IMG/VR virus record: IMGVR_UViG_3300042937_000802
Location: 27,462 to 91,461 of that record
Origin: a virus
Length of the DNA: 64,000 nt
Strand: one strand, 5' to 3'
The position numbers were made by a program, and so were the translations under genes. Each line of letters starts with the position of its first letter. Positions within the stretch are counted from its first letter, which is position 1. The notes under the pieces are model-generated. The model was not told the DNA's origin. It worked only from the letters and a program-made list of their open reading frames with translations, and searched no databases. Below, piece after piece: positions 2,421-51,240 of this stretch.

Positions 2421-2428
2421 TATAAATA
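2421..2428 (+). promoter_or_regulatory. Late promoter box TATAAATA
   Basis: Exact match to the T4 late promoter octamer, 16 nt before the ATG at 2445, with a GGAG ribosome-binding sequence between. It belongs to the long-gap class of late boxes in this window. Confidence 0.6.
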
Positions 2429-4510: not shown

Positions 4511-5458
4511 TTAGGTCGCTAGATAACTAATAATTTGAGCACCTGATTTTGCTCTGTGGGCCAAAAGACTAGAATTTATTATGTCGATGAATAGCGATTC
4601 TCCGGGATCTAGTTCATATCCAAGAGATGTAGTAGATACAGTTGTATCAGTAGTAATGTAAATTACATCGGTATTTGTGGATGCAGCTTTTACATTTATT
4701 CCGCTCATGCAAGTAAATCCAACAAATTGTGATGATGTTGTTGTGCTTGTTAACCTATAAGCAGTGCCACCAGTTGGACGAATAACAGCAAATCCACCAA
4801 GATCACTTCTTAGACCTACGACCTGACCATAGATGGCAGTCATACCACTTAGAATATTTGTGTCATTAATTCCAACAGTGTTGCCTACGTTAACTCCTAC
4901 AGCAGTAGCACCGGAAAGACCAACTACAGTAACAGTAGAAGGAATGGTGGCAGTAATTGTTGCACCAGCAACGTTAACGTTTAGTGCACCATTGGTGTAA
5001 CTTAAAGAATTTCCGGCTTGATCTACTAGATTTACATAGATGTATGTAAGACCGCTGGGCCCCCATACAGAAACCGAATCTGTAGATTTTCCTAGATAAC
5101 GACCACCAGTGACTTCTACTTGTGATCCTGTAAAAGTTCTAACAAATAATGGAGATGAAGTTAGACCAGTTGTGACTACTGAACCAGACACCACCACCGC
5201 AGCACCACCTATACCACGTACATCAATGGTTCCTGTGAATCCAGAAATAGTGGCAGTCATTCCAGTGGCAATTGTTACTGGAAGTGGATTTGCTGAATTT
5301 ACAACTGTCGCAGATCCATCGACACCATACCCAAGTTTAATGAGTTGGTAGTGACCTGTAATACCGCCTGTACCGACAAAATCGGTCGCAATATATGCGG
5401 TTATACCTGCTGTTTGAATTGGAATCGCATCTGATGTTACGCCTGTTCCTGATGGCAT
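4511..5458 (-). CDS. Putative virion structural protein, Gly/Thr/Val-rich
   Basis: A 315-residue minus-strand protein starting at ATG 5456-5458. It has a GAGG-type ribosome-binding sequence in the leader (AACGAGGTCTAATCC) and a CTAAATA late box 29 nt upstream. The composition is almost entirely small and beta-branched residues with repeated short motifs of the ATI.., TVVGLSGATAV and GTGGITG type, consistent with a beta-helical or beta-sandwich fibre or decoration protein. The first 60 residues (PIQTAGITAYIATDFVGTGG and onward) read like the shaft-start segment of phage structural proteins. No enzymatic motif is visible. It forms a two-gene late operon with 3199-4509. Confidence 0.6.
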   Translation of the reverse strand: MPSGTGVTSDAIPIQTAGITAYIATDFVGTGGITGHYQLIKLGYGVDGSATVVNSANPLPVTIATGMTATISGFTGTIDVRGIGGAAVVVSGSVVTTGLTSSPLFVRTFTGSQVEVTGGRYLGKSTDSVSVWGPSGLTYIYVNLVDQAGNSLSYTNGALNVNVAGATITATIPSTVTVVGLSGATAVGVNVGNTVGINDTNILSGMTAIYGQVVGLRSDLGGFAVIRPTGGTAYRLTSTTTSSQFVGFTCMSGINVKAASTNTDVIYITTDTTVSTTSLGYELDPGESLFIDIINSSLLAHRAKSGAQIISYLAT

Positions 5459-5487: not shown

Positions 5488-5494
5488 TATTTAG
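5488..5494 (-). promoter_or_regulatory. Late promoter box CTAAATA (minus strand)
   Basis: CTAAATA on the minus strand, 29 nt upstream of the ATG at 5458, with an SD-like GAGGT in the leader. It probably drives the two-gene minus-strand structural operon. Confidence 0.5.
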
Positions 5495-5507
5495 ATGTAT
5501 TTAATTA

Positions 5508-8030: not shown

Positions 8031-8627
8031 TTATAGTATAGAAGATCTAGTAATAGATCTGTAATTCAATACAACTTGATAAAGTAAGGGAGAATCTGCT
8101 TTGGCAGACAATTGAATAGGCAGTGCCTCTACTGGATATACTTCTTGAAATGTCCATAGAGATTGGTTACTTGTTGAAACCGACTGGTTTCCATTTAAAT
8201 CCAAATATGTAAGTTGAAGATTTGCAGGTTGTACAGTTTCAGTATACCAAGGAACAAAAAAAGTATTATTATTTCTATTGTACATAGCATCAAACCAGTC
8301 ATTAAAATAATTTAAAATAAATAGATCGCCAGTGACATAAAAAGTCATTACAATTCCACCAACAAATTTTGTAGAATTGGGAACAGCTCTACCATAATTG
8401 TAGCCTTGTAGTCCATCATATATGTAATTCGTCGCACGTGCACCAAAAGAAATTTCAGATGGATAGACAGTTATATATGATGATGATACTTGACCATTAG
8501 GAAGGTCATCTAATTCGGGCCTATAAATTTTTACAGCATATCTATTGGCTCTTTGAAGACCGCCACGGGCATTCAAATAATTTTTTAGATTGTCAATATT
8601 ATTGGTGTTTATGGGTGAGGATGACAT
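8031..8627 (-). CDS. Tail-tube-like baseplate protein (gp54-like)
   Basis: A 198-residue protein with the look of a tail-tube fold: an N-terminal helix (NIDNLKNYLNARGGLQRANRYAVKIY, comparable to the NxFKxxFKGGTRxNRFxV start of the two gp19 proteins here), a PSEISFGARATNY strand, and a long strand-helix segment (IVMTFYVTGDLFILNYFNDWFDAMYN). It lies between gp26 and gp4 and opposite gp48. In T4 the tube initiator gp54 and cap gp48 share the tube fold and lie together; I therefore favour gp54, although it is shorter than T4 gp54 (320 aa), and it could instead be a second tube-like baseplate protein. Its 5' end overlaps the end of gp4. Confidence 0.6.
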   Translation of the reverse strand: MSSSPINTNNIDNLKNYLNARGGLQRANRYAVKIYRPELDDLPNGQVSSSYITVYPSEISFGARATNYIYDGLQGYNYGRAVPNSTKFVGGIVMTFYVTGDLFILNYFNDWFDAMYNRNNNTFFVPWYTETVQPANLQLTYLDLNGNQSVSTSNQSLWTFQEVYPVEALPIQLSAKADSPLLYQVVLNYRSITRSSIL

Positions 8628-9040
8628 TTGTTATATAACTCTTTTTCTGTTAAAATTTTAAATTCTATATTGTGTTTTTCACAATAACTTTCTGCTGCCT
8701 TCCACTTTGCAGTATTTACTGCCCATATATATTTTTCATTTTTGTTGGCATTTTCTTTTAAGAAGGTTTGTTTTTTGGGTTTGACTTCTACCATCCAAAT
8801 TTTTTTATTATTGTTTTGCTTTATCTCTATTAAAAAATCTGGATAATAGTTTTTAATTTTATTTTCTATTGGATGCACATAAGGAATTGCAATTTCTTCA
8901 GATGACCATTTTATTATATTTGGATGGTCGTCGCAAAATTTGCAAACAGTTCTTTCCCATAGGGATCTGCATACGATCTTTTCACAATCGCCTATGTATT
9001 TCTCTTTGTTTTTTGGAAAAAACTGTGTTCTGTACGCCAT
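8609..9040 (-). CDS. 4: Head completion protein gp4 (TnsA-like nuclease fold)
   Basis: A 143-residue protein equivalent to T4 gp4/gp50 (about 150 aa), needed to finish the head after packaging. The sequence shows the endonuclease-like core: a SLWERTVCKFCDDHP helix, then VHPIENKIKNYYPDFLIEI (PDF motif with the conserved Asp) and IWMVEVKPKKQT (E-x-K motif). Together PD...ExK is the PD-(D/E)xK nuclease signature seen in TnsA-like gp4 proteins. It opens the minus-strand operon gp4-gp54-like-gp26/51. A CATAAATA box lies only 6 nt upstream of the ATG and no ribosome-binding sequence is visible, so a leaderless late mRNA is likely. Confidence 0.85.
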   Translation of the reverse strand: MAYRTQFFPKNKEKYIGDCEKIVCRSLWERTVCKFCDDHPNIIKWSSEEIAIPYVHPIENKIKNYYPDFLIEIKQNNNKKIWMVEVKPKKQTFLKENANKNEKYIWAVNTAKWKAAESYCEKHNIEFKILTEKELYNKCHPHP

Positions 9041-9046
9041 TTTAAA

Positions 9047-9054
9047 TATTTATG
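9047..9054 (-). promoter_or_regulatory. Late promoter box CATAAATA for gp4 operon (minus strand)
   Basis: CATAAATA on the minus strand, 6 nt from the gp4 ATG (9040). It is back to back with the plus-strand box at 9061-9067. Confidence 0.55.
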
Positions 9055-9060
9055 ATATTG

Positions 9061-9067
9061 CTAAATA
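9061..9067 (+). promoter_or_regulatory. Late promoter box CTAAATA for gp48
   Basis: CTAAATA, then 7 nt (TTATAGT) to the ATG at 9075. There is no room for a ribosome-binding sequence if transcription starts 6-7 nt after the box. Confidence 0.5.
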
Positions 9068-9074: not shown

Positions 9075-9881
9075 ATGGCATCAACATATATATACCCAAT
9101 TGCAGGTAGCGCTTCTGGTGCTGAAGTTCCTTTGCAACTCAGATTTGATGTTGCAACCTATTCTTTAAAGAATTTTGAAAGAACCAGAGATTCTATCGTA
9201 ACTAGATCCGATGCTACCATAATACTTCCTATGCCAAAAGAACCGGGCTATAGTATCATTCACCAGTTTGGTGAAGGTCAAAATCCTGTTGGACCCGTAA
9301 TTTCTATGGCAGGTGCAGCCAATAGCGGTGGTTTGGATAACTTTGGAACTTTGTATTCAAGAGTAATGCAGCCAGTAGCATTCTTTGCTGAAAGGCAATA
9401 TGCAACTGATACTTATAGAAGGTTTAGTAATATTACCGAACTTACCATGGTTTCAGAGGCTAGAAAAAGTTATTACTTTGAATATTTGTTTGTTCCAAAA
9501 TCACCAGATGAGTCAAATGTTGTTACTGATATAGTTGGAACGTTTAGAAAAGGATCTTATCCAGTAGTTGCTACAGGCTTACCCGAAAGATCTTATCCAC
9601 AAAGACTATGGAATATTTCCGTAATGAATGGTGGAGATATAAATCCAAATAGAACTGCGGATTGGTTTGGTGAACCTCTTCCATGTGTTTTGAGTGGTAT
9701 TGTCGTAAAACATGCAGACTACGGTGATCCAGTATTGCGGTATCTTAAAGACTATCGTTCATCTGCTGTTATGCTTGGTCTTAATTTTGTTGAATTTGAA
9801 ACTGGTACATATGTTCCAGATGCAAATGCTACTTGGTCTAAATCTGAAATTTCAGATTATTATTTTGGATACTCTGGATAA
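9075..9881 (+). CDS. 48: Baseplate tail tube cap gp48
   Basis: The frame is open from 8940, but the first part overlaps divergent gp4 and its promoter, and the sequence becomes protein-like at MASTYIYPIAGSASG; ATG 9075 gives 268 residues. T4 gp48 caps the baseplate and starts the tail tube. Family-like segments are SDATIILPMPKEPGYSIIHQFGEGQNPVGPV, then ITELTMVSEARKSYYFEYLFVPKSPDE and FRKGSYPVVATGLPERSYPQRLWNISVM, with a late strand pair (LPCVLSGIVVKHADYG ... VMLGLNFVEFET) as in tube-fold proteins. It is shorter than T4 gp48 (364 aa) but fits the marine T4-like family. It is directly followed by gp53 with overlapping stop and start. A CTAAATA box lies 7 nt upstream. Confidence 0.75.
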   Translation: MASTYIYPIAGSASGAEVPLQLRFDVATYSLKNFERTRDSIVTRSDATIILPMPKEPGYSIIHQFGEGQNPVGPVISMAGAANSGGLDNFGTLYSRVMQPVAFFAERQYATDTYRRFSNITELTMVSEARKSYYFEYLFVPKSPDESNVVTDIVGTFRKGSYPVVATGLPERSYPQRLWNISVMNGGDINPNRTADWFGEPLPCVLSGIVVKHADYGDPVLRYLKDYRSSAVMLGLNFVEFETGTYVPDANATWSKSEISDYYFGYSG

Positions 9882-13521: not shown

Positions 13522-13529
13522 TATAAATA
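13522..13529 (+). promoter_or_regulatory. Late promoter box TATAAATA for gp25
   Basis: Exact T4 late octamer, 7 nt before the gp25 ATG (13537), without a ribosome-binding sequence between. Confidence 0.6.
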
Positions 13530-13536: not shown

Positions 13537-13920
13537 ATGAAAACCAAAGATTTTTCAATATTATTAGAAAAAGTATCAACTGCAAATTCCAAAAAAGATT
13601 TGGCATTTGTGAGTGGTACAAATTCTATAGTTCAACAAATTGAAAATGTACTGAGAACAAATAAAGGTGAAAATGTTTCAAACATGAGTTTTGGAGCAAA
13701 TATCAGAGATTATACCTATGACGTTGCCGTCAATAGACAAATTATTACAAGTACTTTGAGGTCAGTAATCAAATCCTCAATAAGAAAAATATTTGATGTA
13801 TCTGTTACTGTAAATTATTATTCGGATACAGCAATAATCTTTGATATTCAATTTTCTACAGAAATATCTTTAACTAGTCAAAATAAATCATCCTGCCAGA
13901 TAGAGATACCATTATCATGA
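13537..13920 (+). CDS. 25: Baseplate wedge subunit gp25 (GPW_gp25 family)
   Basis: A 127-residue protein matching T4 gp25 (132 aa), the lysozyme-like-fold wedge protein that contacts gp6 and gp53 and initiates the sheath. The family signature is clear: NSIVQQIENVLRTNKGE with R40-T-N-K-G-E45, followed by MSFGANIRDY. Its start follows a TATAAATA box by only 7 nt with no ribosome-binding sequence, so the mRNA may be leaderless here. The stop overlaps the gp6 start (ATGA at 13917-13920), giving translational coupling with the next wedge gene. Confidence 0.9.
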   Translation: MKTKDFSILLEKVSTANSKKDLAFVSGTNSIVQQIENVLRTNKGENVSNMSFGANIRDYTYDVAVNRQIITSTLRSVIKSSIRKIFDVSVTVNYYSDTAIIFDIQFSTEISLTSQNKSSCQIEIPLS

Positions 13921-14990: not shown

Positions 14991-15610
14991 TTCCTCTGTT
15001 CTTTAACAGATTACCCGTAAGTATTGCTCAAAAAGTTGAATTGCTTTTTGAAAAAGCATTAAAGCAATATGGTTCAGAATTATATAATGTTGGAAAAGAC
15101 AAATTTATTGGTGATAATCTAACAGTTGAATCATTGTTTCCAGAGTGGATAATTCAGGAATATCAAAGCAATACTTCTAATGTGACAATTGTTCCTATTG
15201 TCAAACAATATCTTCGTTGGCTGTACAGCATGAAATATGGCTATGGTGCATATATTCCGTGGGAAGTATTGAGAAGTCCAGTATTCATGCCACCTGAATT
15301 GTTACAGGGGTTGGCTGAATTATATTTCCCCGGAGAAGATTTCTCATCTGATGAATTATCAGATATTCTTCCAAACATTCCAAAATTTTCAATACAAGTG
15401 GATTATCAATACTTCGGAAAAAAGGGAACTCCTGGTGGCATTCGTTATGTGTTAACAACTCTAATGGGTTATAGTTATTCAACTACTAAAGTTATAAGTT
15501 TTAGTAATTCTGTTATAAAAATTATTGCAAATGTTTCAGATAACCATAAAGCTTTCTTAGAAAGAAGTGTTATACCAGCCGGAATGGTGATTATATATGA
15601 GGCTCCATAA
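14987..15610 (+). CDS. Putative baseplate wedge partner (gp7/gpI-like)
   Basis: A 207-residue protein whose ATG overlaps the gp6 stop (ATGA). It contains FPEWIIQEYQSN, a VKQYLRWLYSMKYGYGAYIPWEVLRSP helix pair, and QYFGKKGTPGGIRYVLTTLMG, where the K-G-T-P-x-G-I-x-Y motif resembles the segment found in tail protein I and the conserved core of gp7. In the contractile baseplates the gp6 dimer pairs with one gp7 to form the core wedge, and gp7 equivalents directly follow gp6 equivalents. It is far shorter than T4 gp7 (1032 aa). The assignment rests on position and this motif. Confidence 0.5.
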   Translation: MIPLFFNRLPVSIAQKVELLFEKALKQYGSELYNVGKDKFIGDNLTVESLFPEWIIQEYQSNTSNVTIVPIVKQYLRWLYSMKYGYGAYIPWEVLRSPVFMPPELLQGLAELYFPGEDFSSDELSDILPNIPKFSIQVDYQYFGKKGTPGGIRYVLTTLMGYSYSTTKVISFSNSVIKIIANVSDNHKAFLERSVIPAGMVIIYEAP

Positions 15611-16056
15611 TGTTATCAAAAATTGTTCTGTTTGCACTATCTGTTGCATCGCGTGGATTAAAAAATCATAAAACTGATTTACCAACTAAACAACTCAGGT
15701 ATATATCTTGTTACGGTAATGGTATTATACCTCCTTGTAAATTTTTAAATAAAAGCAAAGACTCAGAACATTATTATTGTGGAAAATGTGGCTGCGGAGA
15801 TCATAAACATACTTGGTTGGTACGAGAAGCTGGTGAGTATTCTAAATTAGATTATCCAGTAATAAGTTGTCCATTAAAGATGCCGGGATTCAGTAATTAT
15901 GATCCAAATTTTTATGATAAAGAAGATGGCCAACGAAAACGTGATATTGAAAATTTAAATCCTGCATCTGTGGAGTTGGTACAAATAACAGTAAATCACA
16001 GTGAAGAAAATGAACGACTATTTGAAAAACTGAATAACATTATGAAAAATTCATAA
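15610..16056 (+). CDS. Conserved small Cys/His protein of T4-like phages
   Basis: A 148-residue protein between the baseplate wedge and neck genes, beginning at ATG 15610 which overlaps the preceding TAA. Its first 20 residues are hydrophobic. Four Cys and several His (YISCYGNG ... PCKFL ... YYCGKCGCGDHKHTW) form a likely zinc-binding patch, followed by EYSKLDYPVISCPLKMPGFSNYDPNFY. I recognise the arrangement as recurring at this place in marine T4-like phages but know no function. A CATAAATA late box for gp13 overlaps just after its stop. Confidence 0.6.
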   Translation: MLSKIVLFALSVASRGLKNHKTDLPTKQLRYISCYGNGIIPPCKFLNKSKDSEHYYCGKCGCGDHKHTWLVREAGEYSKLDYPVISCPLKMPGFSNYDPNFYDKEDGQRKRDIENLNPASVELVQITVNHSEENERLFEKLNNIMKNS

Positions 16057-16059
16057 ATA
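16052..16059 (+). promoter_or_regulatory. Late promoter box CATAAATA for gp13, leaderless geometry
   Basis: CATAAATA, then TTTTC (5 nt) and the ATG at 16065. T4 late transcription starts about 6 nt after the octamer, which would place +1 at the start codon. Confidence 0.55.
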
Positions 16060-16064
16060 TTTTC

Positions 16065-16892
16065 ATGGCCATTACAACCCGTCAAAACTTTATAGATTAT
16101 TGCTTTAGATCTCTGGGTGCACCTGTAGTGCAAGTAAATATTGATTCCAAACAAGCAGAAGATAGACTTGATGAAGCTCTTGAATATATGTATGAAAGGC
16201 ATTTTGATTTTAATCAACGTGCTTTATTTTTATATCAAATAACGGAAGCAGATAGAGTTAATAGATATTTTGATACAACTCAATTTGGGCCAGCTCTTGG
16301 TGCACAAATTAAAACAGATGAAAATGGAAATACTGGTTACTGGCCTTTAGCAACAGATATTCGTACTATTACAAAGGTATATTCTCCAAGTGATATTGTT
16401 GGTGATTATATGTTTGATTTGCGGTATCAAATGACATTGTTTGATTTTTTTGGATTGTACTTCAACCAGTCAGGCGCCCCTCAGGGACCAATGGCGGCAT
16501 ACATGGAAGGTATGAGTTATATTAAATTGGTTAATGATGTATTTAACTACCCAACATCCTTTACATATACGAGAACAACTGACAGACTATTTTTAGATAC
16601 AGAGCATAGCAAACTTCCTGCCGGAGCATTTTTAATGGTAGAAGCATATGTTCAAATTGACACAAGCCAATATAATAAAGTTTGGAATGATAGAGTTTTC
16701 AAAAGATATTATACTGCATTATTGAAAAAACAATGGGCTCAAAATCTATTAAAATTTACTGGTGTTCCTTTACCCGGTGGTGCTCAATTAAATGCCCCAG
16801 CACTGATGACTGAAGCATTAACTGAATTAAATACCATAGAACAACAACTAGTAAAAACACAAGAATTGCCACCTGATCCACTTATAGGTTAA
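16065..16892 (+). CDS. 13: Neck protein gp13
   Basis: A 275-residue protein matching T4 gp13 (309 aa), which with gp14 forms the neck closing the filled head. The N-terminus (TTRQNFIDYCFRSLGAPVVQVNIDSKQAEDRLDEALEYMYERHFD) is the typical gp13 start with the helix carrying D-R-L-D-E-A-L. A later segment (FKRYYTALLKKQWAQNLLKFTGVPLPGGAQLNA) is also characteristic. gp14 and gp15 follow with 1-8 nt spacing. There is no ribosome-binding sequence, but a late box is 5 nt before the start. Confidence 0.9.
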   Translation: MAITTRQNFIDYCFRSLGAPVVQVNIDSKQAEDRLDEALEYMYERHFDFNQRALFLYQITEADRVNRYFDTTQFGPALGAQIKTDENGNTGYWPLATDIRTITKVYSPSDIVGDYMFDLRYQMTLFDFFGLYFNQSGAPQGPMAAYMEGMSYIKLVNDVFNYPTSFTYTRTTDRLFLDTEHSKLPAGAFLMVEAYVQIDTSQYNKVWNDRVFKRYYTALLKKQWAQNLLKFTGVPLPGGAQLNAPALMTEALTELNTIEQQLVKTQELPPDPLIG

Positions 16893-16893
16893 A

Positions 16894-17559
16894 ATGACCA
16901 CAAATCCTTATATAATAAACTATAGTAATAAAGGTGAGCAAGATCTTGCTGAGGGTATTACTATAGAAATAATACAGGCAATGGGACAGGATTGTATATA
17001 TGTTCCAAGAGAATATTTTTCAATAGATAAAGTTTTTGGTGAGGATCCTGGATCATCATTTACGAAATCTTATACACTAGAAATGTATTTGATGAATTAT
17101 AAAGGATTTGATGGAACTGATATAATAACTCAATTTGGTCTTGAGATTAAAGATAAAGTTACTTTATTATTTGCAAGAAAAAGATTTTTTCAAGAAGTAA
17201 CTAATAGACAAAATTCAATTACTAGACCCAGAGAGGGAGATTTAATTTATTTTCCTCTTTCAAAATCTTTATTTGAAATAAACTTTGTAGAGCATGAAAA
17301 TCCATTATATCCATTTGGCAAACTTTATTCTTATATGATAACAGCAGAATTGTTTACCTATAGTTATGAAAAGGTTAAAACAAATAATGCTACAATTGAT
17401 TCTATAGTTTCACAGACTCGTGGTTTCTCTGGATCACAAATCATACCACTCAATATAAATATTGGCACAACTGCTGGTATAAATGATACTCTACAGACAG
17501 AAGCCAAAGGATATACGTTTGATCCTCAGAATCCCTTTGCAGCAGAAGAAAGTCCTTAA
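16894..17559 (+). CDS. 14: Neck protein gp14
   Basis: A 221-residue protein directly after gp13, equivalent to T4 gp14 (256 aa). The first half (EQDLAEGITIEIIQAMGQDCIYVPREYFSIDKVFGEDPGSSFTKSY) is the conserved start, and ENPLYPFGKLYSYMITAELFTYSYEKV carries the family's closing motif with F-x-Y-S-x-E. Together with gp13 it forms the head-tail connector to which the tail binds. Operon position between 13 and 15 is the T4 order. Confidence 0.9.
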   Translation: MTTNPYIINYSNKGEQDLAEGITIEIIQAMGQDCIYVPREYFSIDKVFGEDPGSSFTKSYTLEMYLMNYKGFDGTDIITQFGLEIKDKVTLLFARKRFFQEVTNRQNSITRPREGDLIYFPLSKSLFEINFVEHENPLYPFGKLYSYMITAELFTYSYEKVKTNNATIDSIVSQTRGFSGSQIIPLNINIGTTAGINDTLQTEAKGYTFDPQNPFAAEESP

Positions 17560-20312: not shown

Positions 20313-20319
20313 AAAATTA

Positions 20320-20326
20320 CTAAATA
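20320..20326 (+). promoter_or_regulatory. Late promoter box CTAAATA for tail sheath
   Basis: CTAAATA, 22 nt before the ATG at 20349, with AAAGGA as ribosome-binding sequence between. It belongs to the long-gap class. Confidence 0.6.
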
Positions 20327-20348: not shown

Positions 20349-21650
20349 ATGCCAACTCTTAGTTCTTTTACTAGCACTAATCAATTTCGAACTGAAACAG
20401 CCTCTGATGCATTTAAGATGGATTGCGGCTATTTGACAGGTTTAACCTATTTAACCCCAACATTTAGTACTGTTGGAGCATCAAACAATCCCGGAAATTT
20501 ATTTGGTTGGCTAATTTATGCCAGAGCAATTAAGTCATCGCCAGCAATAGGTACTACCGCATCAACGTATGTGTATTATACTTCGCCATCAGCAATGGTT
20601 AATGATTTAAACAAATTAAATGGTGTTACCGGAGCTTTAATAAATCCTACAACAACTACAGGAAATAGTTTTGGATTCTTTATCTATAATGGTATAATTA
20701 ATACCGATCAAACCAGTAATCTTGGAATTACTGGTGCTGGAAGAGAATTTTTATATGCATTAGATTATCTTTCATACGGTGGTAATCTCGTTATTGCAGG
20801 AACTACAAAAGGTTTTTTAGACTGGAAAACTGACTATAATACAGATTTTGATTTAATTATGGGTGCAACTGGTTTAGGTTTTTCTGGCGCTCAAAGATGG
20901 CTTGAAAAGGAAGCACCATATACTATAGGTGTGTTTCCTAGTCTAGATGATGGCGCAGGAACAACTTTAACAAATTTTGTTTTTAATGCAACATCATTTG
21001 TCGAAGGCGCAACTGTAGCTGATCGTGTATTTTCTGTGTATGGTCAAAAAACAGTAACAAATCTCCCACTTCCATCGCTTTATACTTCCGGTGTACTGAC
21101 TTATGTTAATAATCTTAGTGCTGATGTTGCTGGTATGTTTACACGCGTTAATGCTAGAAATGAACTTTATTTAACTATTGCGGGTTCGGCTAGAGGTTTC
21201 ATTTTAAATGGAGACGTAACAACCACAGTAAACTTTGCTGATACTGATCTTAAAAATCTTCTTAAAAATGCTCGTGTAAACTATTTCTTAAATTATACAA
21301 CCAAATTCCTTGGTGCTGATTTAGTTGGAGCAACTAGTTCACCATCAAATCCAATAGTTGATGAAAGAATTGGCCCAGCTCAAATGAAGGCCAAAATGAA
21401 GAGAGATATTACAAACATTGGTCTTAAATATCTCTATGAGTTGAATAACTCAACAACCAGAAATCTAGTTACTGGAGAAATAACAAATTACTTGTTGCAA
21501 TATACTACGTACTTGGATACTACAAAAACTCAAGTTATTTGCGATTCTACCAACAACAATGACAACGTATCAACACTTACAATCTTTGTAAATGTAACTC
21601 CATTGATTGGAACAACCTCGTTTACACTGAATATAACTCTAAACCAATAA
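20349..21650 (+). CDS. 18: Tail sheath protein gp18
   Basis: A 433-residue protein between gp17 and the tube genes, the T4 position of the contractile sheath gp18 (659 aa). The middle (GREFLYALDYLSYGGNLVIAGTTKGFLDWK) and the C-terminal domain (VDERIGPAQMKAKMKRDITNIGLKYLYELNN, then the long strands to the end) resemble the sheath fold, in which C-terminal domains mesh neighbouring subunits. The shorter length suggests that one of the outer, protease-resistant domains of T4 gp18 is missing. High expression is expected: it has a late box and a good AAGGA ribosome-binding sequence. Confidence 0.8.
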   Translation: MPTLSSFTSTNQFRTETASDAFKMDCGYLTGLTYLTPTFSTVGASNNPGNLFGWLIYARAIKSSPAIGTTASTYVYYTSPSAMVNDLNKLNGVTGALINPTTTTGNSFGFFIYNGIINTDQTSNLGITGAGREFLYALDYLSYGGNLVIAGTTKGFLDWKTDYNTDFDLIMGATGLGFSGAQRWLEKEAPYTIGVFPSLDDGAGTTLTNFVFNATSFVEGATVADRVFSVYGQKTVTNLPLPSLYTSGVLTYVNNLSADVAGMFTRVNARNELYLTIAGSARGFILNGDVTTTVNFADTDLKNLLKNARVNYFLNYTTKFLGADLVGATSSPSNPIVDERIGPAQMKAKMKRDITNIGLKYLYELNNSTTRNLVTGEITNYLLQYTTYLDTTKTQVICDSTNNNDNVSTLTIFVNVTPLIGTTSFTLNITLNQ

Positions 21651-26398: not shown

Positions 26399-26411
26399 AA
26401 ATTAAAATATA

Positions 26412-26418
26412 CTAAATA
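26412..26418 (+). promoter_or_regulatory. Late promoter box CTAAATA for scaffold gp22
   Basis: CTAAATA, 24 nt before the ATG at 26443, with AAGGA as ribosome-binding sequence. Confidence 0.6.
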
Positions 26419-26442: not shown

Positions 26443-27492
26443 ATGAAAAAGAACAAAAAACTAAATTTATCTGAAGCCGCTGCCCAAGTAATGGGTGTTA
26501 TGGACGCAACTGGTCGTTCTGATATGGACGCAAGTGGTCGTGGATCCATGATTTCTGCTCCAGTTGACACAACTGGCGTTTCTGCAATTGCAGCGTCTGC
26601 TGGTCAACCTGGCGTACCCGCAACCATGAGAGTTGCTGCTCCAGGTATGCGTGCTACTGCTGCAAAAGATGGCGAAGAAGATACTGCCATTGATAATGAT
26701 GCTCAAGAAGGCGAAGAAGGCGAAGAAGAAGAAATGCCTGTTGAGACCAACGAAGAACTAAAGACACAATTCCGTGATGCCATCATTTCTCTTCTTGGTG
26801 AAGATAATGTCAATAAGTCTTCTCTAGAACAACTTGAAGCAATCTTTGAGGCTGCTGTCTCTGACAGAGTTGAATCAGAAGTTGCCAAGGTTCTTGTTGA
26901 ACTTGATGAGAATGCCAAAGACTATCTCTCTAATGTAACCAATTCATTGGTTGAGAAAGTTGATGACTATCTTGAGTACGTTGTTGAAGAGTGGATGACA
27001 GAGAATACTGTTGCCGTCGAACAAGGTATCAAGACCACTATTGCTGAGAATTTCATCAGTGGCCTCAAGAATCTCTTTGAGAATCACTACATTGATGTTC
27101 CAAACGAGAAGTACAATGTTCTTGATGAACTCTATGAGCAAAACAGAAAGCTTCAAGAATCTCTCAATGAGTCCATGAAGTTTAGCATCGATCTCAAGAA
27201 AGAGATCGCACTCACCGAGTGTGCTGGAATCTTTGTTGCCGAAACCAAGAATCTTGCTGACACTCAAGTCAACAAACTACAAAATTTGATGGAAAATATC
27301 AACTTCAACACTCCCGAAGAGTATCGTAATAAGTTGGTAGCCATCAAGGAAAACTATTTACAGGGTAATAGAGTTTCTGCACCCTCTAAGCCAGTTGATG
27401 AGGATATGACCTTCTCAAAGACTGTTTCTGCTCCAACAACACTCGTAGAAAACTATGCGAATGTAATGGGTAGATTAAATAAGAAACTATAA
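26443..27492 (+). CDS. 22: Prohead core scaffold protein gp22
   Basis: A 349-residue scaffold, longer than T4 gp22 (269 aa). After a basic start with a possible gp21 site (L9-S-E11 followed by AAAQ) comes an Ala/Gly/Thr-rich linker, a strongly acidic run of Glu-Gly repeats near residues 87-97, then a long coiled, helical core (LKTQFRDAIISLLGEDNVNKSSLEQLEAIFEAAV ... YNVLDELYEQNRKLQESLNESMKF) typical of scaffolds. Codon use shifts toward C-ending codons in its second half, as in gp23, consistent with strong late expression. Own late box and ribosome-binding sequence precede it. gp23 follows with another promoter. Confidence 0.88.
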   Translation: MKKNKKLNLSEAAAQVMGVMDATGRSDMDASGRGSMISAPVDTTGVSAIAASAGQPGVPATMRVAAPGMRATAAKDGEEDTAIDNDAQEGEEGEEEEMPVETNEELKTQFRDAIISLLGEDNVNKSSLEQLEAIFEAAVSDRVESEVAKVLVELDENAKDYLSNVTNSLVEKVDDYLEYVVEEWMTENTVAVEQGIKTTIAENFISGLKNLFENHYIDVPNEKYNVLDELYEQNRKLQESLNESMKFSIDLKKEIALTECAGIFVAETKNLADTQVNKLQNLMENINFNTPEEYRNKLVAIKENYLQGNRVSAPSKPVDEDMTFSKTVSAPTTLVENYANVMGRLNKKL

Positions 27493-27504
27493 CTTTACTA
27501 ATTA

Positions 27505-27511
27505 CTAAATA
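27505..27511 (+). promoter_or_regulatory. Late promoter box CTAAATA for major capsid protein
   Basis: CTAAATA, 28 nt before the gp23 ATG (27540), with CAGGAGA as a strong ribosome-binding sequence. Confidence 0.65.
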
Positions 27512-27539: not shown

Positions 27540-28988
27540 ATGCAATTTCAAGACAATACCCCATATGACATTCTAACCGAGAAATGGAATCCAGTGCTCA
27601 ATCACGAAGCACTATCTCCAATCGGTGATGATTACCGTAAGAAGGTGACTGCCGTCCTTCTTGAAAACCAAGAGCAAGCCATTCGTAGCCAACACCTCGC
27701 TGAGGATATGAGCTCCGGTAACCTCGGTGGTCCCGCCACCTCCACTGGTTACAACACTGGTGCCGTCTCTGGTTATGACCCCGTTCTAATCAGCCTCGTT
27801 CGTCGTTCCATGCCAAATCTCATGGCATACGACATCTGCGGCGTTCAACCCATGACTGCCCCAACCGGCCTAATCTTTGCGATGCGTTCGCAATATGGTA
27901 ATGGTGGTAGTTATGGTAGCAACTTCTACACCGAAGCCATGTTCCAAGAACCACAACCAGTATATGGTGGTTCAGGATATACCTTAACTGGTCTATCATT
28001 CGCTGGTATTACCGCTGGTTCCGGTCTAAGCGCTGGATGGAATTATGCTGCTGGATTCTCTGGTGGTATTAACTATACCTCCTACGCCGGTAGCGGAGTA
28101 AATTCCTTCAACGCTCTACGTGGTATTTTGACAAACTTCGGTGAAGGTATCGGTGGAGCAGCTACAACTTCTCCTTACACTGCTTTTAACCAAATGTCTT
28201 TCTCAATCGACCGCGTTGCTGTTCAAGCTCGTACTCGCGCTCTAAGCAGCAACTACTCTGTCGAATTGGCACAAGACCTCAAGGCCGTCCACGGTCTCGA
28301 TGCTGAAGCCGAACTCGCCAATCTTCTCAGCACAGAAATTCTTGCTGAAATCAACCGCGAAATCGTCAGAACCATTTACTATGTTGCTAAGAGTGGTTCA
28401 CAACAACCCGATATTGGTAATAAAGGTGTTTATAACCTTGTTGCTGACTCAGACGGTCGTTGGTCTGCTGAACGCTTCCGTGGCCTCAGCTTCCAAATCG
28501 AGCGCGAGTGCAATGCAATTGCTAAGGAAACCCGCCGTGGTAAGGGCAACTTCATCATCTGCGATAGCGATACCGCAGCCGCCCTCGCTATGTCTGGCTT
28601 CATGAGCCTCAGCCCAGCCATTGCTCCTCAACTCAATGTTGATGACACTCAAGCAACCTTTGCTGGTATCCTAAGTGGTAAGATCCGTGTTTACATCGAT
28701 CCATATGCCCCACTTGGTGCCAACTTCTTCGTTGCTGGCTATAAGGGTGAGAGTCCATATGACGCAGGTATCTTCTACTGCCCATACGTTCCTCTCCAAA
28801 TGGTCCGTGCAGTTGATCCCAATACTTTCCAACCACGTATTGCGTTCAAGACCCGTTATGGTGTAGTTGCTAACCCCTTTGTTATCAACACCACAACCAA
28901 GATTCCAGATGGTGAAACCCTAAGCGCTGGTATCAATCAATACTACCGTCTAACCCAAGTTGCCAACCTCCACGGTAACGGTACTTGA
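27540..28988 (+). CDS. 23: Major capsid protein gp23
   Basis: A 482-residue HK97-fold major head protein (T4 gp23 is 521 aa). Recognisable blocks are YDPVLISLVRRSMPNLMAYDICGVQPMTAPTGLIFAMRSQYG, EYSVELAQDLKAVHGLDAEAELANLLS-like, FIICDSDTAAALAMSGF and the C-terminal FKTRYGVVANPF. The N-terminal 55 residues look like the removable prohead peptide: HLAE at 52-55 followed by DMSSG fits the (I/L)xE cleavage consensus of the gp21 protease (T4 is cut at Glu65). The gene has the highest share of C-ending codons in the window and lies between a late promoter with strong ribosome-binding sequence and a 13-bp terminator. Confidence 0.97.
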   Translation: MQFQDNTPYDILTEKWNPVLNHEALSPIGDDYRKKVTAVLLENQEQAIRSQHLAEDMSSGNLGGPATSTGYNTGAVSGYDPVLISLVRRSMPNLMAYDICGVQPMTAPTGLIFAMRSQYGNGGSYGSNFYTEAMFQEPQPVYGGSGYTLTGLSFAGITAGSGLSAGWNYAAGFSGGINYTSYAGSGVNSFNALRGILTNFGEGIGGAATTSPYTAFNQMSFSIDRVAVQARTRALSSNYSVELAQDLKAVHGLDAEAELANLLSTEILAEINREIVRTIYYVAKSGSQQPDIGNKGVYNLVADSDGRWSAERFRGLSFQIERECNAIAKETRRGKGNFIICDSDTAAALAMSGFMSLSPAIAPQLNVDDTQATFAGILSGKIRVYIDPYAPLGANFFVAGYKGESPYDAGIFYCPYVPLQMVRAVDPNTFQPRIAFKTRYGVVANPFVINTTTKIPDGETLSAGINQYYRLTQVANLHGNGT

Positions 28989-29016: not shown

Positions 29017-29046
29017 AAAACCCTCCCGAGAAATCGGGAGGGTTTT
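29017..29046 (+). terminator. Strong rho-independent terminator after gp23
   Basis: A perfect 13-bp stem (AAAACCCTCCCGA pairing with TCGGGAGGGTTTT) closed by a GAAA tetraloop and followed by CTTTT. It insulates the abundant gp23 message from the next gene, which has its own late box. Confidence 0.92.
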
Positions 29047-29054: not shown

Positions 29055-29062
29055 CATAAATA
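29055..29062 (+). promoter_or_regulatory. Late promoter box CATAAATA, leaderless geometry
   Basis: CATAAATA, then TTTCT (5 nt) and the ATG at 29068. No ribosome-binding sequence; the same 5-nt arrangement as at gp13. Confidence 0.55.
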
Positions 29063-29067: not shown

Positions 29068-29595
29068 ATGGCAACCTGCTCAAGTAATACCAATCCACTT
29101 TACAATAATTACTTTACTCTTAAATTTAATAGAGGTACTAGCCAACTGGAACTTATGTGTCAGAGAGCAAACCTTCCCGGCATTTCTGTTCCAGATCTAG
29201 TTCAACCAACTACTTTAGGTACTACAATTCCAGTTCCAAGTATGGTTGCTGGATTTGAACCTCTGGCAGTGGAATTCATTGTTGATGAAAATATGACAAA
29301 TTGGAATTCCATATACTCATGGATTCGAAATATTACAAATATTGAAAATGATACTGAATATAATATTGATTATCAAACCTGGCATATTACAGGAACCCTG
29401 AGCATTTATACAGGTCCGTTTGGACTTGCTAACAACAGCCCTATAACAATAACTTTTACAAATATTGTTCCAATATATTTGAGTGGATTGAATTTTCAAT
29501 CTGACAATAGTGATGCAATTGTTCAAAAAGCCAATTGCAAATTTAAATATTCGTATTATACAATATCACCCAACCCCCCCGCCATACTTACTTAA
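29068..29595 (+). CDS. Tail completion/tube-related protein (gp3-like)
   Basis: A 175-residue protein directly after gp23, the cyanophage position of gene 3 (T4 gp3 is 176 aa), whose product terminates the tail tube. The sequence (YNNYFTLKFNRGTSQLELMCQRANLPGISVPDLVQPTTLGTTIPVPS ... EPLAVEFIVDENMTNWNSIYSWIRNI) has the look of a tube-fold protein: an opening strand, an 'LPG' turn, and F-x-V-D-E-x-x-x-N-W-x-x-I-x-x-W before a helix. A role as a tail terminator or tube-associated protein is therefore likely; the exact name is by synteny. Its TAA shares TTAA with the convergent Sm-like gene. Confidence 0.6.
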   Translation: MATCSSNTNPLYNNYFTLKFNRGTSQLELMCQRANLPGISVPDLVQPTTLGTTIPVPSMVAGFEPLAVEFIVDENMTNWNSIYSWIRNITNIENDTEYNIDYQTWHITGTLSIYTGPFGLANNSPITITFTNIVPIYLSGLNFQSDNSDAIVQKANCKFKYSYYTISPNPPAILT

Positions 29596-30263
29596 AGATA
29601 GTCGGTGGGGTTGTCAGACCAGCTCTCAGGGTTCTCTGGGGGCAGATTTGGGTCAAATGGTAATTTGTTTTGCTCAGGCTTGACTTTACGGCGCTTCTTG
29701 CGCTTGGGTTGGGGTGCAGGCTCTTCTGGAGGTGGTTCGTTTATAGGGGATTCTTGGTCTTCGTTTGACAATATATCCTCTTCGTCACCCTCATCTAGTA
29801 AAATTTCAGCTTCTTCAAAGTTATCTATCAGATCATTGACAAAATTTACAAAATCTTCATTTGTGAATAAATCATTTAACATTTGAAGACCAGATTCATG
29901 TGCAAACTTCATATTATCGGGGAGAGATGAAACTACAGTTTTGGGATCTGTCTGCATTGTCATAAAATAGATCTCATACATCTTCTCTAATTCCAGAGTA
30001 GGTGCTCCAATATAAACTATGACATTGCGTGTTAGAGAAATTTCATGACCACGAATATTGGAAAGATAATTTGTTAGTTTGACGTATTCTACTAATTCGC
30101 CTTGTTCATCACGAACAACATAGGCTTCAAGCCGAGCAGGCAGTTTAATTGAAATTCTGTCGGTGTAAGCCTCATTGACCATACCAATTATTTCTTCACC
30201 TGAAGTAAGCTTAACCACTCGCAACACACCGCCAAAAGAATTTTCGGGAAGTGATTCGGACAT
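29592..30263 (-). CDS. Sm-like domain protein upstream of uvsW
   Basis: A 223-residue protein. Residues about 10-90 form an Sm/LSm-like pattern (RVVKLTSGEEIIGMVNEAY ... ISIKLPARLEAYVV ... RNVIVYIGAPTLELEKMYEIYF). A helical acidic linker (EEAEILLDEGDEEDILSNEDQE) and a Pro/Lys-rich basic tail (PPPEEPAPQPKRKKRRKVKPEQ) follow. The tail could bind nucleic acid or a partner. The ATG has a very good GGGAGGA ribosome-binding sequence and a GATAAATA box 22 nt upstream. Position next to uvsW is conserved in marine T4-like phages; function unknown. It may be a larger relative of the protein at 2930-3202. Confidence 0.65.
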   Translation of the reverse strand: MSESLPENSFGGVLRVVKLTSGEEIIGMVNEAYTDRISIKLPARLEAYVVRDEQGELVEYVKLTNYLSNIRGHEISLTRNVIVYIGAPTLELEKMYEIYFMTMQTDPKTVVSSLPDNMKFAHESGLQMLNDLFTNEDFVNFVNDLIDNFEEAEILLDEGDEEDILSNEDQESPINEPPPEEPAPQPKRKKRRKVKPEQNKLPFDPNLPPENPESWSDNPTDYL

Positions 30264-30284: not shown

Positions 30285-31793
30285 TTATTTATCTTTTAAG
30301 GTGTCCTTTAAAGACATGGAAAAGATCTTATGGTCAAACTTTTCTTTTTTGTATATCTTAACACGTTCTTCAAAGTGACGGAAGATATGGTTCTTATGTT
30401 TTAACCAACAAAGATCATCCACAATATCAAAAACTTTAAGTGTTTTCTTCTTTGCAGATACTCTAAGACCACGACCAATGCTCTGTAACAATCGAATTAT
30501 AGACTTAGTAGGCGAGGCAAAAATAATATTGTCGATATTAACAATGTTGATACCAGCGCTAGTAGTGCCATAACTCGCAACCAGTATAGCATCTCTTTCC
30601 GTATCAACGACTTTTCTAATATATTCTCTTGTGTCTGCTTCTGTTTTTCCAGAGATGAAATATATTGGTCTACCGCTTTTTGCTGACTCCAAGAGAGCGG
30701 CGAGAGGCTTTCCGTGATCTTCGACGTAATTGAAGAGGACGAGCGTGTTGCCTTTGGTTTTGAGGGCAAGTTCTTTGACAAATTCGTTCCTCTTCTTATT
30801 AGTTATAATCCACTTTAATTCGTCAGGGTATTTTTGCTTCTTGAGCAACTGCTTTTCTTCGTCTGTATACTGCAACAGAATACAGTCGATTCCAATAGTG
30901 GCAAGCAATCCCTTGTTCATTAGGTTTTTTGTTTGGATGAACTGAATAGCGGGACCAAGTATGCCTTCAATACTAAGTCTATGTGCCTGTGCTTGATCCA
31001 GTGTTCCTGTTGTACCAATACGAAACCAAGCCTTGGCAAGCTTCTGACCAATCATGTTGATTGATTCGGCTTTTGCTTGATGACACTCGTCAAAGAAAAT
31101 AGCATCAAATTGATCAAACCATTCTTTTGGCAATTTATATATTGATTGCCAAGTAGAGACTACTATCTGCTTATTAGTATCTTTATCTACCCCTGCTGAT
31201 ATTTTATGAATATATTTTTTGCAAGACCAAGATGAGTCTTGGGAAGAATAATCAAAAAAGTCAGAATCCATTTGATTCACGAGACCAACTGTTGGTACGA
31301 GAATCAAAATTTTTCGATTTGGCGATAAGACGGATTGTAGAAAACGGACCAAGACGTAGATTATCAAACTTTTGCCCGAACCAGTAGGAGAAATCAATAC
31401 GCATCTGTGATGGTTTAAAGCATGCATAATTGCTTGCTGCTGATGCGCATGCATCTGAACGGGCTTTTTCTTTACCGATACCGCTAGGGTATCGTAAAAT
31501 TGAGCAAGCTGTGTTTCCTTTATACATAAAGGATTCCTATTCTCTTTAATATTTAATGAATATTTACGATCTTGAGAAAATTTATCAAGATAAGTTTTTA
31601 ACCCGCGTGGAAGAGTGGATGTAAGGATATCATATAAGCGGATCTTTCCATCCCATATACGCCGTTTGAACATAGGCATATACTGGGCACCGGGTACCAT
31701 GAACGAGAAGTAATCTCGTAATTCTTGCTTGATTCCTTTTTCTGTTTTGATGTAGTAACGAACTTCATCTACAGATTCAACTTCAATATCCAC
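30285..31793 (-). CDS. uvsW: RNA-DNA and DNA helicase UvsW
   Basis: A 502-residue superfamily 2 helicase, almost exactly the length of T4 UvsW (503 aa). Motif I is SPTGSGKS at 135-142, motif II is DECH at 235-238, motif III lies in GTTGTLDQ, and motif VI is QSIGRGLR. A Rossmann-like N-terminal substrate domain precedes the helicase core. UvsW removes R-loops, drives branch migration and turns replication from origin to recombination mode late in infection. The start used here is GTG 31791-31793; no better ATG is in frame. It follows uvsY within 7 nt in one minus-strand operon. Confidence 0.95.
   Translation of the reverse strand: MDIEVESVDEVRYYIKTEKGIKQELRDYFSFMVPGAQYMPMFKRRIWDGKIRLYDILTSTLPRGLKTYLDKFSQDRKYSLNIKENRNPLCIKETQLAQFYDTLAVSVKKKPVQMHAHQQQAIMHALNHHRCVLISPTGSGKSLIIYVLVRFLQSVLSPNRKILILVPTVGLVNQMDSDFFDYSSQDSSWSCKKYIHKISAGVDKDTNKQIVVSTWQSIYKLPKEWFDQFDAIFFDECHQAKAESINMIGQKLAKAWFRIGTTGTLDQAQAHRLSIEGILGPAIQFIQTKNLMNKGLLATIGIDCILLQYTDEEKQLLKKQKYPDELKWIITNKKRNEFVKELALKTKGNTLVLFNYVEDHGKPLAALLESAKSGRPIYFISGKTEADTREYIRKVVDTERDAILVASYGTTSAGINIVNIDNIIFASPTKSIIRLLQSIGRGLRVSAKKKTLKVFDIVDDLCWLKHKNHIFRHFEERVKIYKKEKFDHKIFSMSLKDTLKDK
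30286..30293 (-). promoter_or_regulatory. Late-type box GATAAATA for Sm-like gene (minus strand)
   Basis: GATAAATA on the minus strand overlapping the uvsW stop, 22 nt upstream of the ATG at 30263, with GGGAGGA between. Confidence 0.45.
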
Positions 31794-31797: not shown

Positions 31798-31805
31798 TAT
31801 TTATA
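31798..31805 (-). promoter_or_regulatory. Late-type box TATAAATA before uvsW (minus strand)
   Basis: TATAAATA on the minus strand overlapping the uvsY stop, 4 nt before the GTG of uvsW. It would allow late uvsW transcription independent of uvsY, as T4 UvsW is a late protein. Confidence 0.4.
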
Positions 31806-32326: not shown

Positions 32327-32986
32327 ATGATTATTGATTTACAGGAAATTAAAACACTTTGGATTAATTTAGATCGGGCTACAAAAAACGCAGAAGATAT
32401 AACAAAGCAATGTGAAATTTATGGAATAAAAAACCATGAAAGATTTCCAGCAATAGTTATTGATCCTTCAAATCATTTATGTGTAAGTCATCATCCACAC
32501 ATGAAGCCATATTTGGCTGGTTGTGGGCTTTCTCACATAGAATGCATTAAAAAAAGTATTGGCAGTGGTCCAACACTGGTTTTGGAAGATGATGCTCAGA
32601 TTACACCGGCATATGAGAATATTATAGAAGTTCCAGATAATATTGATGCACTTTATCTGGGTGTTTCTACCGGTTCTCAACAATATTTGAGTTGTGCATA
32701 CAATGAAAAATATTTAAGAATAGGCAGAATGTTAGCAGCACATGCGGTTGTTTATATATCTGAACGGTATAAACAAGCAGCATTAGCAGAAGCAGAAAGA
32801 TTTGTACACGAATTGCATTATCCGTGGGACATATCACCTTCAGTAATCCAAGAACACTTTTTAGTATTGACTCCAAAATTGCCATTTTACATTCAATCAG
32901 ACAATAGACAATCTGAACACAAATGGCAATTTTTTACAGATAAAGCAATAGAAGACAAAGGTTATAACTTTAATGATAACTTTTAA
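32327..32986 (+). CDS. Glycosyltransferase, GT25 (LPS biosynthesis) type
   Basis: A 219-residue protein opening the sugar island. The start LWINLDRATKNAEDITKQC is the typical V/I-N-L-x-R-x-x-x-R opening of GT25 enzymes, GCGLSHIECIKKSI the conserved middle G-C-x-x-S-H motif, and TLVLEDDAQITPAYE carries the acidic L-E-D-D metal-binding motif. GT25 members add galactose or related sugars to LPS and, in eukaryotes, to collagen hydroxylysine. A GAGG ribosome-binding sequence and early promoter precede it. It overlaps the next gene by 14 nt. Acceptor unknown. Confidence 0.75.
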   Translation: MIIDLQEIKTLWINLDRATKNAEDITKQCEIYGIKNHERFPAIVIDPSNHLCVSHHPHMKPYLAGCGLSHIECIKKSIGSGPTLVLEDDAQITPAYENIIEVPDNIDALYLGVSTGSQQYLSCAYNEKYLRIGRMLAAHAVVYISERYKQAALAEAERFVHELHYPWDISPSVIQEHFLVLTPKLPFYIQSDNRQSEHKWQFFTDKAIEDKGYNFNDNF

Positions 32987-36118: not shown

Positions 36119-36121
36119 TAA

Positions 36122-36149
36122 TTGCATATTACAAATTATAGTATATATT
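36122..36149 (+). promoter_or_regulatory. Sigma70-type promoter inside the sugar island
   Basis: TTGCAT at 36122-36127, 16-nt spacer, TATATT at 36144-36149, then 10 nt to the ATG at 36160; no ribosome-binding sequence. Confidence 0.45.
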
Positions 36150-36159
36150 AATAATAATT

Positions 36160-37464: not shown

Positions 37465-37474
37465 GGAATATGCT

Positions 37475-38188: not shown

Positions 38189-38209
38189 ATAAAAAAAGAA
38201 TATTAAATA

Positions 38210-39157: not shown

Positions 39158-39450
39158 TTTATATTGATATAGACGATACAATCTGTAATAGTCCTAATAA
39201 ACCAGACTATACGGTTTGCTATCCTATTTTAGAAAATATAATTAAAGCCAATAAATTATATGATGATGGACATTTAATAGTTTATTGGACTGCCAGAGGA
39301 ACTGCAACTGGTATTGATTGGTCTGATATTACTAAAAAACAACTAAAAGAATGGGGAGTTAAATATCATGATTTAAAATTTGGTAAACCAAATTATGATC
39401 TCTTCATTGATGATAAAAATATGAATACCAAAGATTGGAATCTTATATGA
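39151..39450 (+). CDS. Small HAD-family phosphatase-like protein
   Basis: A 99-residue protein beginning at the ATG that overlaps the RmlB-like stop. DIDDTI at residues 5-10 is HAD motif I with both aspartates, YWTARGT is motif II, and KPNYDLFIDDKN supplies the motif III lysine and motif IV aspartates. Short HADs of this type occur in polysaccharide clusters, where they remove phosphate from sugar-phosphate intermediates. Between a sugar dehydratase and a NeuB-type synthase, a sugar-9-phosphate or similar phosphatase is plausible but not shown. Confidence 0.7.
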   Translation: MVIYIDIDDTICNSPNKPDYTVCYPILENIIKANKLYDDGHLIVYWTARGTATGIDWSDITKKQLKEWGVKYHDLKFGKPNYDLFIDDKNMNTKDWNLI

Positions 39451-45269: not shown

Positions 45270-45833
45270 GTGAAACAACCTAAAAAGAAAAAGAAAGCAT
45301 CCGATGCCGATTACGTGAGTAATCAAGAGTTATATGATGCTTTAGTAGAATATCGTAAAAAGTCTGCTGATGCAGATAATGCTGGCCGCAAAAAACCAAA
45401 GTTACCAGATTTCATAGGCGAATGCATTCTTAAAATTGCATCTCGCCTTTCTTATCGTCCTAATTTTGCAAATTATCCATACAGAGAAGAAATGGTATCA
45501 GATGCAGTATTAAACTGTGTTACATACATTGATAACTTTGATCCCAGCAAGTCTACAAGCCCATTTGGGTACTTGACACAGATTTGCTGGTTTTCTTTTG
45601 TACGTATAATAAACAAAGAAAAGCGAGAAAAGTATACTCAGTATAAATTTGCTGAACAGCAGAATGATAAAGATTTCCATAACTGGTTCAATGAAACCTA
45701 TGCGGGAATTGATATTGGTAGAAGAGATTTCTTTGGATTGACAGATCTTGACATGGAACGTTTTGATGAAATGTTAAGCCCAAAGAAAACAAAAAGAAAA
45801 AAGAAAGTTAAAAAGGATTCATTAGATATATGA
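45270..45833 (+). CDS. 55: Late-gene sigma factor gp55
   Basis: A 187-residue protein similar in length to T4 gp55 (185 aa), the minimal sigma factor that recognises the TATAAATA late box. After a Lys-rich start comes [77 protein letters not shown], which carries the region 2-like helices with W and F residues for promoter opening. The C-terminus is basic. It starts at GTG 45270 without a ribosome-binding sequence, 6 nt after a perfect -10, so the transcript should begin at the start codon. It overlaps gmd by 4 nt. Confidence 0.9.
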
Positions 45834-50568: not shown

Positions 50569-51240
50569 ATGAGTACTGTGACAAAAATGCGTCTGAGCAA
50601 AGAAACCTATAACATTCTAAAGAATTTTGCAGCCATCAACTCAAACATTCTTATTCAACCCGGAAACATCCTGAAGACGGTTTCAGCTGGTAAGAACATC
50701 TATGTTGAGGCAAAGGTAACTGAGGACTTTGATATTGATGTTCCTATTTGGGATCTAAATAAGTTCCTCGGTATCATTAGCATGTTTAACAATCCTGATC
50801 TTGAGTTTCATGACACTCATGTCGTGATTACTAACGGTCGGTCTAGCGTTACATATTACTATTCCGAACCAAGCCTGCTCACGGTTCCTACCAGAGAGAT
50901 CAAAATGCCTGCGACTGTTACACGTTTTGAGCTTGATGAAAAAGATCTTAACGAGATTCTTAAGGCTTCAAGTGTGCTTCAGGTAAGTGATCTTCGTATG
51001 GTTGGTGGTGACGGCAAGTTCACCATTAGTGTAGATGACTCTGGTCAGAGCACAAGCAATAGTTTTGAAATTGTCATTGATGAAAATTATACCGGCAAGG
51101 ACTTTGAAGGAACGGTCAATGTTTCAGAAATGAAGTTCATTCCCGGTTCATATAGTGTTGAATTGACTGACACTATTATTTCTAAGTTTACGCACAAGAG
51201 TTTGGATCTTTCTTACTACATCGCCATCAAGCGGGGTTAA
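50569..51240 (+). CDS. 45: Sliding clamp gp45
   Basis: A 223-residue clamp, similar to T4 gp45 (228 aa). The two-domain clamp pattern is visible: RLSKETYNILKNFAAINSNILIQPGN, the inter-strand region DFDIDVPIWDLNKFLGIISMFN, and the second domain FELDEKDLNEILKASSVLQVSDLRMVGGDGKF. It holds DNA polymerase on DNA and acts as mobile activator of late transcription through gp33 and gp55, both present here. It leads the clamp-loader genes in the T4 order 45-44-62-regA. Confidence 0.95.
   Translation: MSTVTKMRLSKETYNILKNFAAINSNILIQPGNILKTVSAGKNIYVEAKVTEDFDIDVPIWDLNKFLGIISMFNNPDLEFHDTHVVITNGRSSVTYYYSEPSLLTVPTREIKMPATVTRFELDEKDLNEILKASSVLQVSDLRMVGGDGKFTISVDDSGQSTSNSFEIVIDENYTGKDFEGTVNVSEMKFIPGSYSVELTDTIISKFTHKSLDLSYYIAIKRG

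Follow-up and report, generated by a model that had tools for sequence, protein, structure and literature searches.

Late promoters in two layouts, one of them predicted to give leaderless mRNAs, in a T4-like phage and its relatives

Introduction

Where does a late transcript begin, and how is it translated, when its promoter lies five bases ahead of the start codon? The question is raised by gp13 (head-tail adaptor Ad2; 16065..16892, + strand; phrog_211, E=1.8e-31) in the DNA analysed here, a window of 64,000 bases that corresponds to bases 27462-91461 of a 91,461-base (91 kb) record of a T4-like freshwater virus. In the window sequence, a late box, CATAAATA (16052..16059, + strand), is separated by 5 nt from the gp13 ATG at 16065. 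The octamer of T4 late promoters occupies positions -13 to -6 (PMC1524935), which makes the sixth base after the box +1, and a gap of 5 nt would thus put +1 on the A of the AUG. The gp13 mRNA is accordingly predicted to be leaderless, starting with the A of its ATG.

Leaderless mRNAs are known in phage lambda and are widespread in bacteria (PMC9031893, PMC4965119). In pelagimyophages the usual methods reportedly could not find late promoters (PMC7029224), and the late promoters in the transcriptome of Ma-LMM01 are sigma-70-like and have no bearing on the octamer. We found no description of leaderless late transcripts in T4-like phages in the open-licence literature, an absence that is weak evidence.

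Materials and methods

Relatives were collected around the portal genes of the window phage, of Mosig, a phage of the ocean bacterium Pelagibacter, and of cyanophage Syn9, with 80 loci for each of the three; 32 loci around gp4 were added. They were analysed as a freshwater clade (clade F, n=113), a Pelagibacter-phage-like clade (clade P, n=81) and cyanophages (n=81). The gap was measured from ATAAATA to the first ATG of the called ORF, and only ATG starts were counted. Composition-matched control heptamers were obtained by rearranging the letters of ATAAATA in the 20 other possible ways. Raw site counts are inflated by phage kinship and are not independent, so sites were also counted by gene family.

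Results

The window encodes T4-like structural genes (gp4, gp48, a gp25-like gene, gp13 to gp18, the tube, portal gp20, gp21 to gp23 and gp3), and its uvsW and uvsY are also T4-like. Both the T4-type late sigma factor gp55 (45270..45833, + strand; phrog_234, E=3.5e-50) and the sliding clamp gp45 (50569..51240, + strand; phrog_223, E=2e-67), which in T4 is a co-activator of late transcription, are present, as expected for gp55-dependent late promoters. The portal was less than 50% identical to those of the best cultured phages among the matches listed; close relatives of the window phage are metagenome contigs. The freshwater, pelagi-like and cyanophage clades were apart in a portal tree that did not settle the branching order among them, so that the short class of promoters described below may have had one origin or several. 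A host search in genome contigs returned either nothing or four contigs with ~50% identity, which came from bins of bacteria unrelated to one another.

Bases 1 to ~8900 of the source contig (window coordinates ~-27460 to -18560) had a G+C content of 51-60%, compared with ~40% just downstream, carried four tRNA genes (Ile-TAT, Arg-TCT, Leu-CAA and Lys-TTT) and were without a nucleotide match in any fetched relative; this block is either foreign or an assembly chimera. Within the window, a sugar cassette (32327-46891) comprised glycosyltransferases, an aminotransferase, epimerases, a methyltransferase and a TPP enzyme, and an ORF of more than 2300 residues (56995-64000), open at the contig end and with a G+C content of ~50% in its mid-part, consisted mostly of collagen-like Gly-X-Thr repeats. 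One contig with a relative of gp4 (L276; 202 kb) had a predicted permuted tmRNA at 16762-17129.

The late boxes of the window have the form N[A/C]TAAATA. A sequence-only reading had described boxes either 4-7 nt or 16-29 nt before start codons, and every site that it named was present at these distances. Short-class boxes preceded six genes. Besides gp13, whose box contains the TAA stop codon of an upstream ORF (15610-16056), these included gp3 (tail completion / sheath stabilizer with a tail-tube fold; 29068..29595, + strand; phrog_45), the product of which matched annotated gp3 of cyanophages and coliphages; its box, CATAAATA (29055..29062, + strand), lies at a gap of 5, and its mRNA is likewise predicted to be leaderless. 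The head closure gene gp4 (8609..9040, - strand; phrog_218, E=1.6e-48) has a box CATAAATA (9047..9054, - strand) at a gap of 6, and the baseplate tail tube cap gene gp48 (9075..9881, + strand; phrog_230), the start of which was set at ATG 9075 with the N-terminus aligned in relatives, has a box GCTAAATA (9060..9067, + strand) at a gap of 7; the two boxes are divergent inside one 34-nt intergenic region. The gp25-like baseplate wedge gene (13537..13920, + strand; phrog_975 / phrog_43) is preceded at a gap of 7 by TATAAATA (13522..13529, + strand), and the uvsW helicase gene (30285..31793, - strand; phrog_16, E=5.5e-92) begins with GTG at a gap of 4 from TATAAATA (31798..31805, - strand).

Leadered boxes were each followed by a Shine-Dalgarno (SD) sequence. 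The same octamer, ACTAAATA, preceded the tail sheath gene gp18 (20349..21650, + strand; phrog_23; box 20319..20326, + strand, gap 22, SD AAAGGA), the scaffold gene gp22 (26443..27492, + strand; phrog_237; box 26411..26418, + strand, gap 24, SD AAGGA) and the major capsid gene gp23 (27540..28988, + strand; phrog_138, E=2e-147; box 27504..27511, + strand, gap 28, SD AGGAGA). Three further leadered boxes belonged to gene 29592-30263 (GATAAATA, 30286..30293, - strand, gap 22, SD GGGAGG), gene 2445-2933 (TATAAATA, 2421..2428, + strand, gap 16, SD GGAG) and gene 4511-5458 (TCTAAATA, 5488..5495, - strand, gap 29, SD CGAGG).

Outside the window, the source contig carried gap-5 boxes at three more genes, which start at window coordinates -17427 (- strand), -16903 (- strand) and -13502 (+ strand). 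The products of the first and third of these open with similar MD(Y/H)(L/I)T motifs, and neither gene had a match when searched against PHROGs.

The spacing exceeded chance. Five short-class sites preceded an ATG in the window alone, whereas shuffling the upstream regions 2000 times gave 0.66 on average (p<0.001), and ATAAATA occurred nine times at gaps of 4-8 in the 91-kb contig, relative to a mean of 0.9 and a maximum of 3 for the 20 permuted heptamers. Bimodality was modest in the window by itself and became decisive once relatives were added. At a gap of exactly 5, we counted 46 distinct sites in clade F (control mean 1.3, maximum 6) and 31 in clade P (control mean 0.15, maximum 1); by gene family, a gap-5 site occurred in 16 families, with a control mean of 0.8 and a maximum of 3. 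Gap histograms of both clades showed a peak at 5, almost nothing at 9-12 and a renewed rise from 13, and the Bayesian information criterion (BIC) preferred two gap components in clades F and P and one in cyanophages. At gaps of 4-8, no site was found in the 81 cyanophage loci, and none before the first ATG in the T4 region read. The proposed division into two gap classes, for which a wider scan without bimodality would have been fatal, thus held in both clades, where the layout is present. Octamers close to TATAAATA lie upstream of late genes beyond chance, as T4-type late promoters do.

Class went with gene family. In clade F, the gap was always 5 at gp3, 5 or 8 at gp13, mostly 5-7 at gp25 and gp4 and mostly 7 at gp48, and in the leadered class it was 20-24 at gp18, 20-28 at gp22 and 27-31 at gp23. 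The 5-nt spacer of the short class was constant in length and variable in sequence. Families with mixed gaps exist as rare exceptions, part of which stem from the choice of the first ATG; for instance, a gp4 at an apparent gap of 2 begins MMAY, and the ATG that matches other gp4 starts lies at a gap of 5. In clade P, gp13 (in most members), gp20 and gp21 were leadered. SD-like motifs were found at 5/94 short-class sites vs 79/86 leadered sites in clade F, and at 2/35 vs 78/104 in clade P; apart from these 5 and 2 sites, short-class starts lack a Shine-Dalgarno sequence before the start codon, as leaderless mRNAs do. At gp13, the gap-8 loci L017, L023, L049 and L080 had AAT, ATA or ATC at +1 with ATG right after, and gaps of 6 and 7 were not seen, the change from 5 to 8 being an in-frame step of one codon.

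The start codons on which these gaps depend agreed with those of known phages. In alignments, gp13 began no more than 2-3 residues away from the N-termini of its counterparts in T4, Syn9 and Mosig, the N-terminus of gp4 coincided with that of T4 gp4 to a similar precision (two or three residues), and the uvsW GTG was aligned with the ATG of T4 uvsW. With one exception, the freshwater members listed had this GTG at a distance of 4 nt from the box; a strict +1 at position 6 would cost its first base, so that uvsW must have either a displaced +1 or another layout.

The position of +1 can be approached in two ways. At leadered boxes, position 6 after the box was the most purine-rich position in cyanophages (family-balanced share 0.89), with shares of 0.77 in clade P and a weaker 0.62 in clade F, and it was a purine in 27/33 sites with gaps of 6-9; this enrichment hints indirectly at a +1 there. 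The second approach is geometric. An intrinsic terminator hairpin (29017..29046, + strand; 13 pairs, 4-nt loop) follows gp23 and insulates gp3, with 8 nt between its end and the gp3 box, and it is kept across clade F and in most members of clade P, with a stem that varies in sequence. Because of this terminator, and because the gp4 and gp48 boxes diverge within 34 nt, a transcript starting downstream of these boxes would have a leader of at most a few bases, a limit that, as read from this geometry, is independent of the T4 start point.

Discussion

We consider it highly probable that these boxes are gp55-type late promoters in two layouts, one of which gives leaderless mRNAs. The octamers would be T4-type late promoters read by RNA polymerase under the phage's own gp55 and gp45, in two conserved, gene-specific layouts. 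In the leadered class the octamer would stand 13-33 nt upstream, with a strong SD filling the leader. In the short class its distance to the start codon would be 5 nt (range 4-8), and transcription would begin at the AUG or 1-3 nt ahead of it, leaving no SD. With +1 carried over from T4, late mRNAs from short-class boxes are very likely leaderless; we infer that these phages share the T4 position of +1, at the sixth nt past the box, and that such mRNAs are translated, which would need recognition of a 5'-terminal AUG, as in the 70S initiation of other systems. The prediction of leaderless late mRNAs made by the sequence-only reading is, as a prediction, strongly supported, and the modal gap of 5 is sharper than the range it had given.

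Other explanations account for parts of these data. Short-class genes might be expressed mainly from longer mRNAs by coupling or re-initiation, the box being a secondary promoter. The stop codon held in the gp13 box, 8 nt before the ATG, is suggestive of this, and gp13 and gp25, in same-strand clusters, could also be reached by a read-through mRNA and then re-initiation; as a general account it is distinctly unlikely, as a conserved terminator stands ahead of gp3, gp4 and gp48 are divergent, so that the neighbouring gene is on the opposite strand, and read-through gives no reason for keeping an exact +1/AUG spacing. Boxes might instead have been pushed against start codons to save space, with leaderless expression tolerated rather than selected. 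The gp13 and gp25 boxes do overlap or abut the upstream gene, and gp4 and gp48 share 34 nt. However, 57-72 nt are free between the gp23 stop codon and the gp3 box, yet the gp3 gap is exactly 5, and in most members the upstream gene comes within 0-12 nt of the gp18, gp22 and gp23 boxes, which still have gaps of 20-31 nt. Compaction by itself predicts no exact 5; we regard it as unlikely, and as a sufficient cause it is ruled out by the gp3 spacing. That the heptamer beside the AUG is an A/U-rich S1-type site enhancing translation, and not a promoter, is scarcely credible: the region is A/U-rich, but the late promoters of T4 and of cyanophages consist of an octamer whose first base varies (PMC1524935, PMC2984593), leadered genes use the same octamer, and the 20 permutations of the same composition, none of which shows a comparable peak, rule this explanation out.

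Two further proposals concern what leaderless late mRNAs would be for. T4 gp18, gp22 and gp23 are high-copy proteins, and gp3, gp4, gp13, gp25, gp48 and uvsW are low-copy ones. The sequence-only reading had proposed dosage control, in which leader length sets the translation rate, so that capsid and sheath genes carry SD leaders and the connector and baseplate genes of low copy number do without; such control would give the leaderless mRNAs a function and is no alternative to them. The nine freshwater genes of known copy class fit, with gp18, gp22 and gp23 leadered and the six low-copy genes short (one-sided Fisher p=0.012, tested after the pattern had been seen), but in clade P, where the low-copy genes gp13, gp20 and gp21 are leadered, the association did not hold (p=0.48). 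Low-copy genes of T4 and cyanophages are leadered too. Dosage control is therefore compatible with the data at most, and we hold it to be doubtful as a general explanation, although, given the freshwater arrangement, leader length may help to hold connector and baseplate proteins of low copy number below the amounts of capsid and sheath. Alternatively, leaderless late mRNAs might be a tier with regulation of its own if the phage alters the host initiation machinery late in infection, so that 5'-terminal-AUG mRNAs for connector, baseplate and tail-completion proteins would be timed and dosed apart from SD-led capsid and sheath mRNAs. The annotation of a ribosomal protein S21 in HTVC008M is an example that can be cited for this proposal, which we find improbable.

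The predicted leaderless class is best seen against the systems that it resembles. In T4, late promoters (gp55/gp33/gp45; TATAAATA at -13 to -6) have the same octamer at the same late structural genes, and gp55 and gp45 are also found here; the leadered class has the T4 layout, most T4 boxes lying at gaps of 12-35 in the region read. Unlike that region, the window phage has a second class, in which +1 would coincide with or adjoin the start codon in at least six conserved genes. The T4-like cyanophages S-PM2 and Syn9 (NATAAATA) share the degenerate octamer and the structural gene order, with boxes at leader distance. Leaderless mRNAs of the lambda cI type start with their AUG, carry no SD and use 70S-type initiation (PMC9031893, PMC4965119); here, by contrast, the prediction extends to an entire promoter class under a phage late sigma factor, beside an SD-led class with the same octamer.

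Among cultured phages, the pelagimyophages HTVC008M and Mosig and the methylophage Melnitz have gap-5 boxes at gp3, at a small gene next to it, or at another small gene, which is flanked by gp17 and gp18. The gap is 5 at Mosig gp3, at HTVC008M gp3 and gp092, and at Melnitz gp200 (- strand), and it is 8 at HTVC008M gp13. The pelagimyophage-like clade differs from the window phage in that gp13 is mostly leadered, and Melnitz differs in that its annotated gp3 has a leader. In Melnitz (L286, position 12001), the ATG at a gap of 5 is not in the reading frame of gp3 as annotated, the start of which has a gap of 22 nt and an SD-like AAGGGA; the out-of-frame ATG is possibly a 5'-terminal upstream AUG. 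Beside gp18, clade P loci (minus strand; for example L138, L142 and L149) and Melnitz (gp200) carry a gene of ~100 residues with its own gap-5 late box. In loci that have both terminase and sheath this gene lies between the two, and it encodes cysteine motifs that may recall HNH endonucleases.

Because the same arrangement occurs in cultured HTVC008M, Mosig and Melnitz, the leaderless prediction is testable. If it is true, a T4-type late sigma factor drives an entire class of leaderless mRNAs, a layout missing from the T4 region and the cyanophages examined, and the pelagimyophages would gain the late promoters that an earlier study had sought without success (PMC7029224). The layout would also make it easier to place start codons and 5' ends in many phages known only from uncultured material, and it would offer a natural comparison of leaderless and SD-led translation from the same type of promoter.
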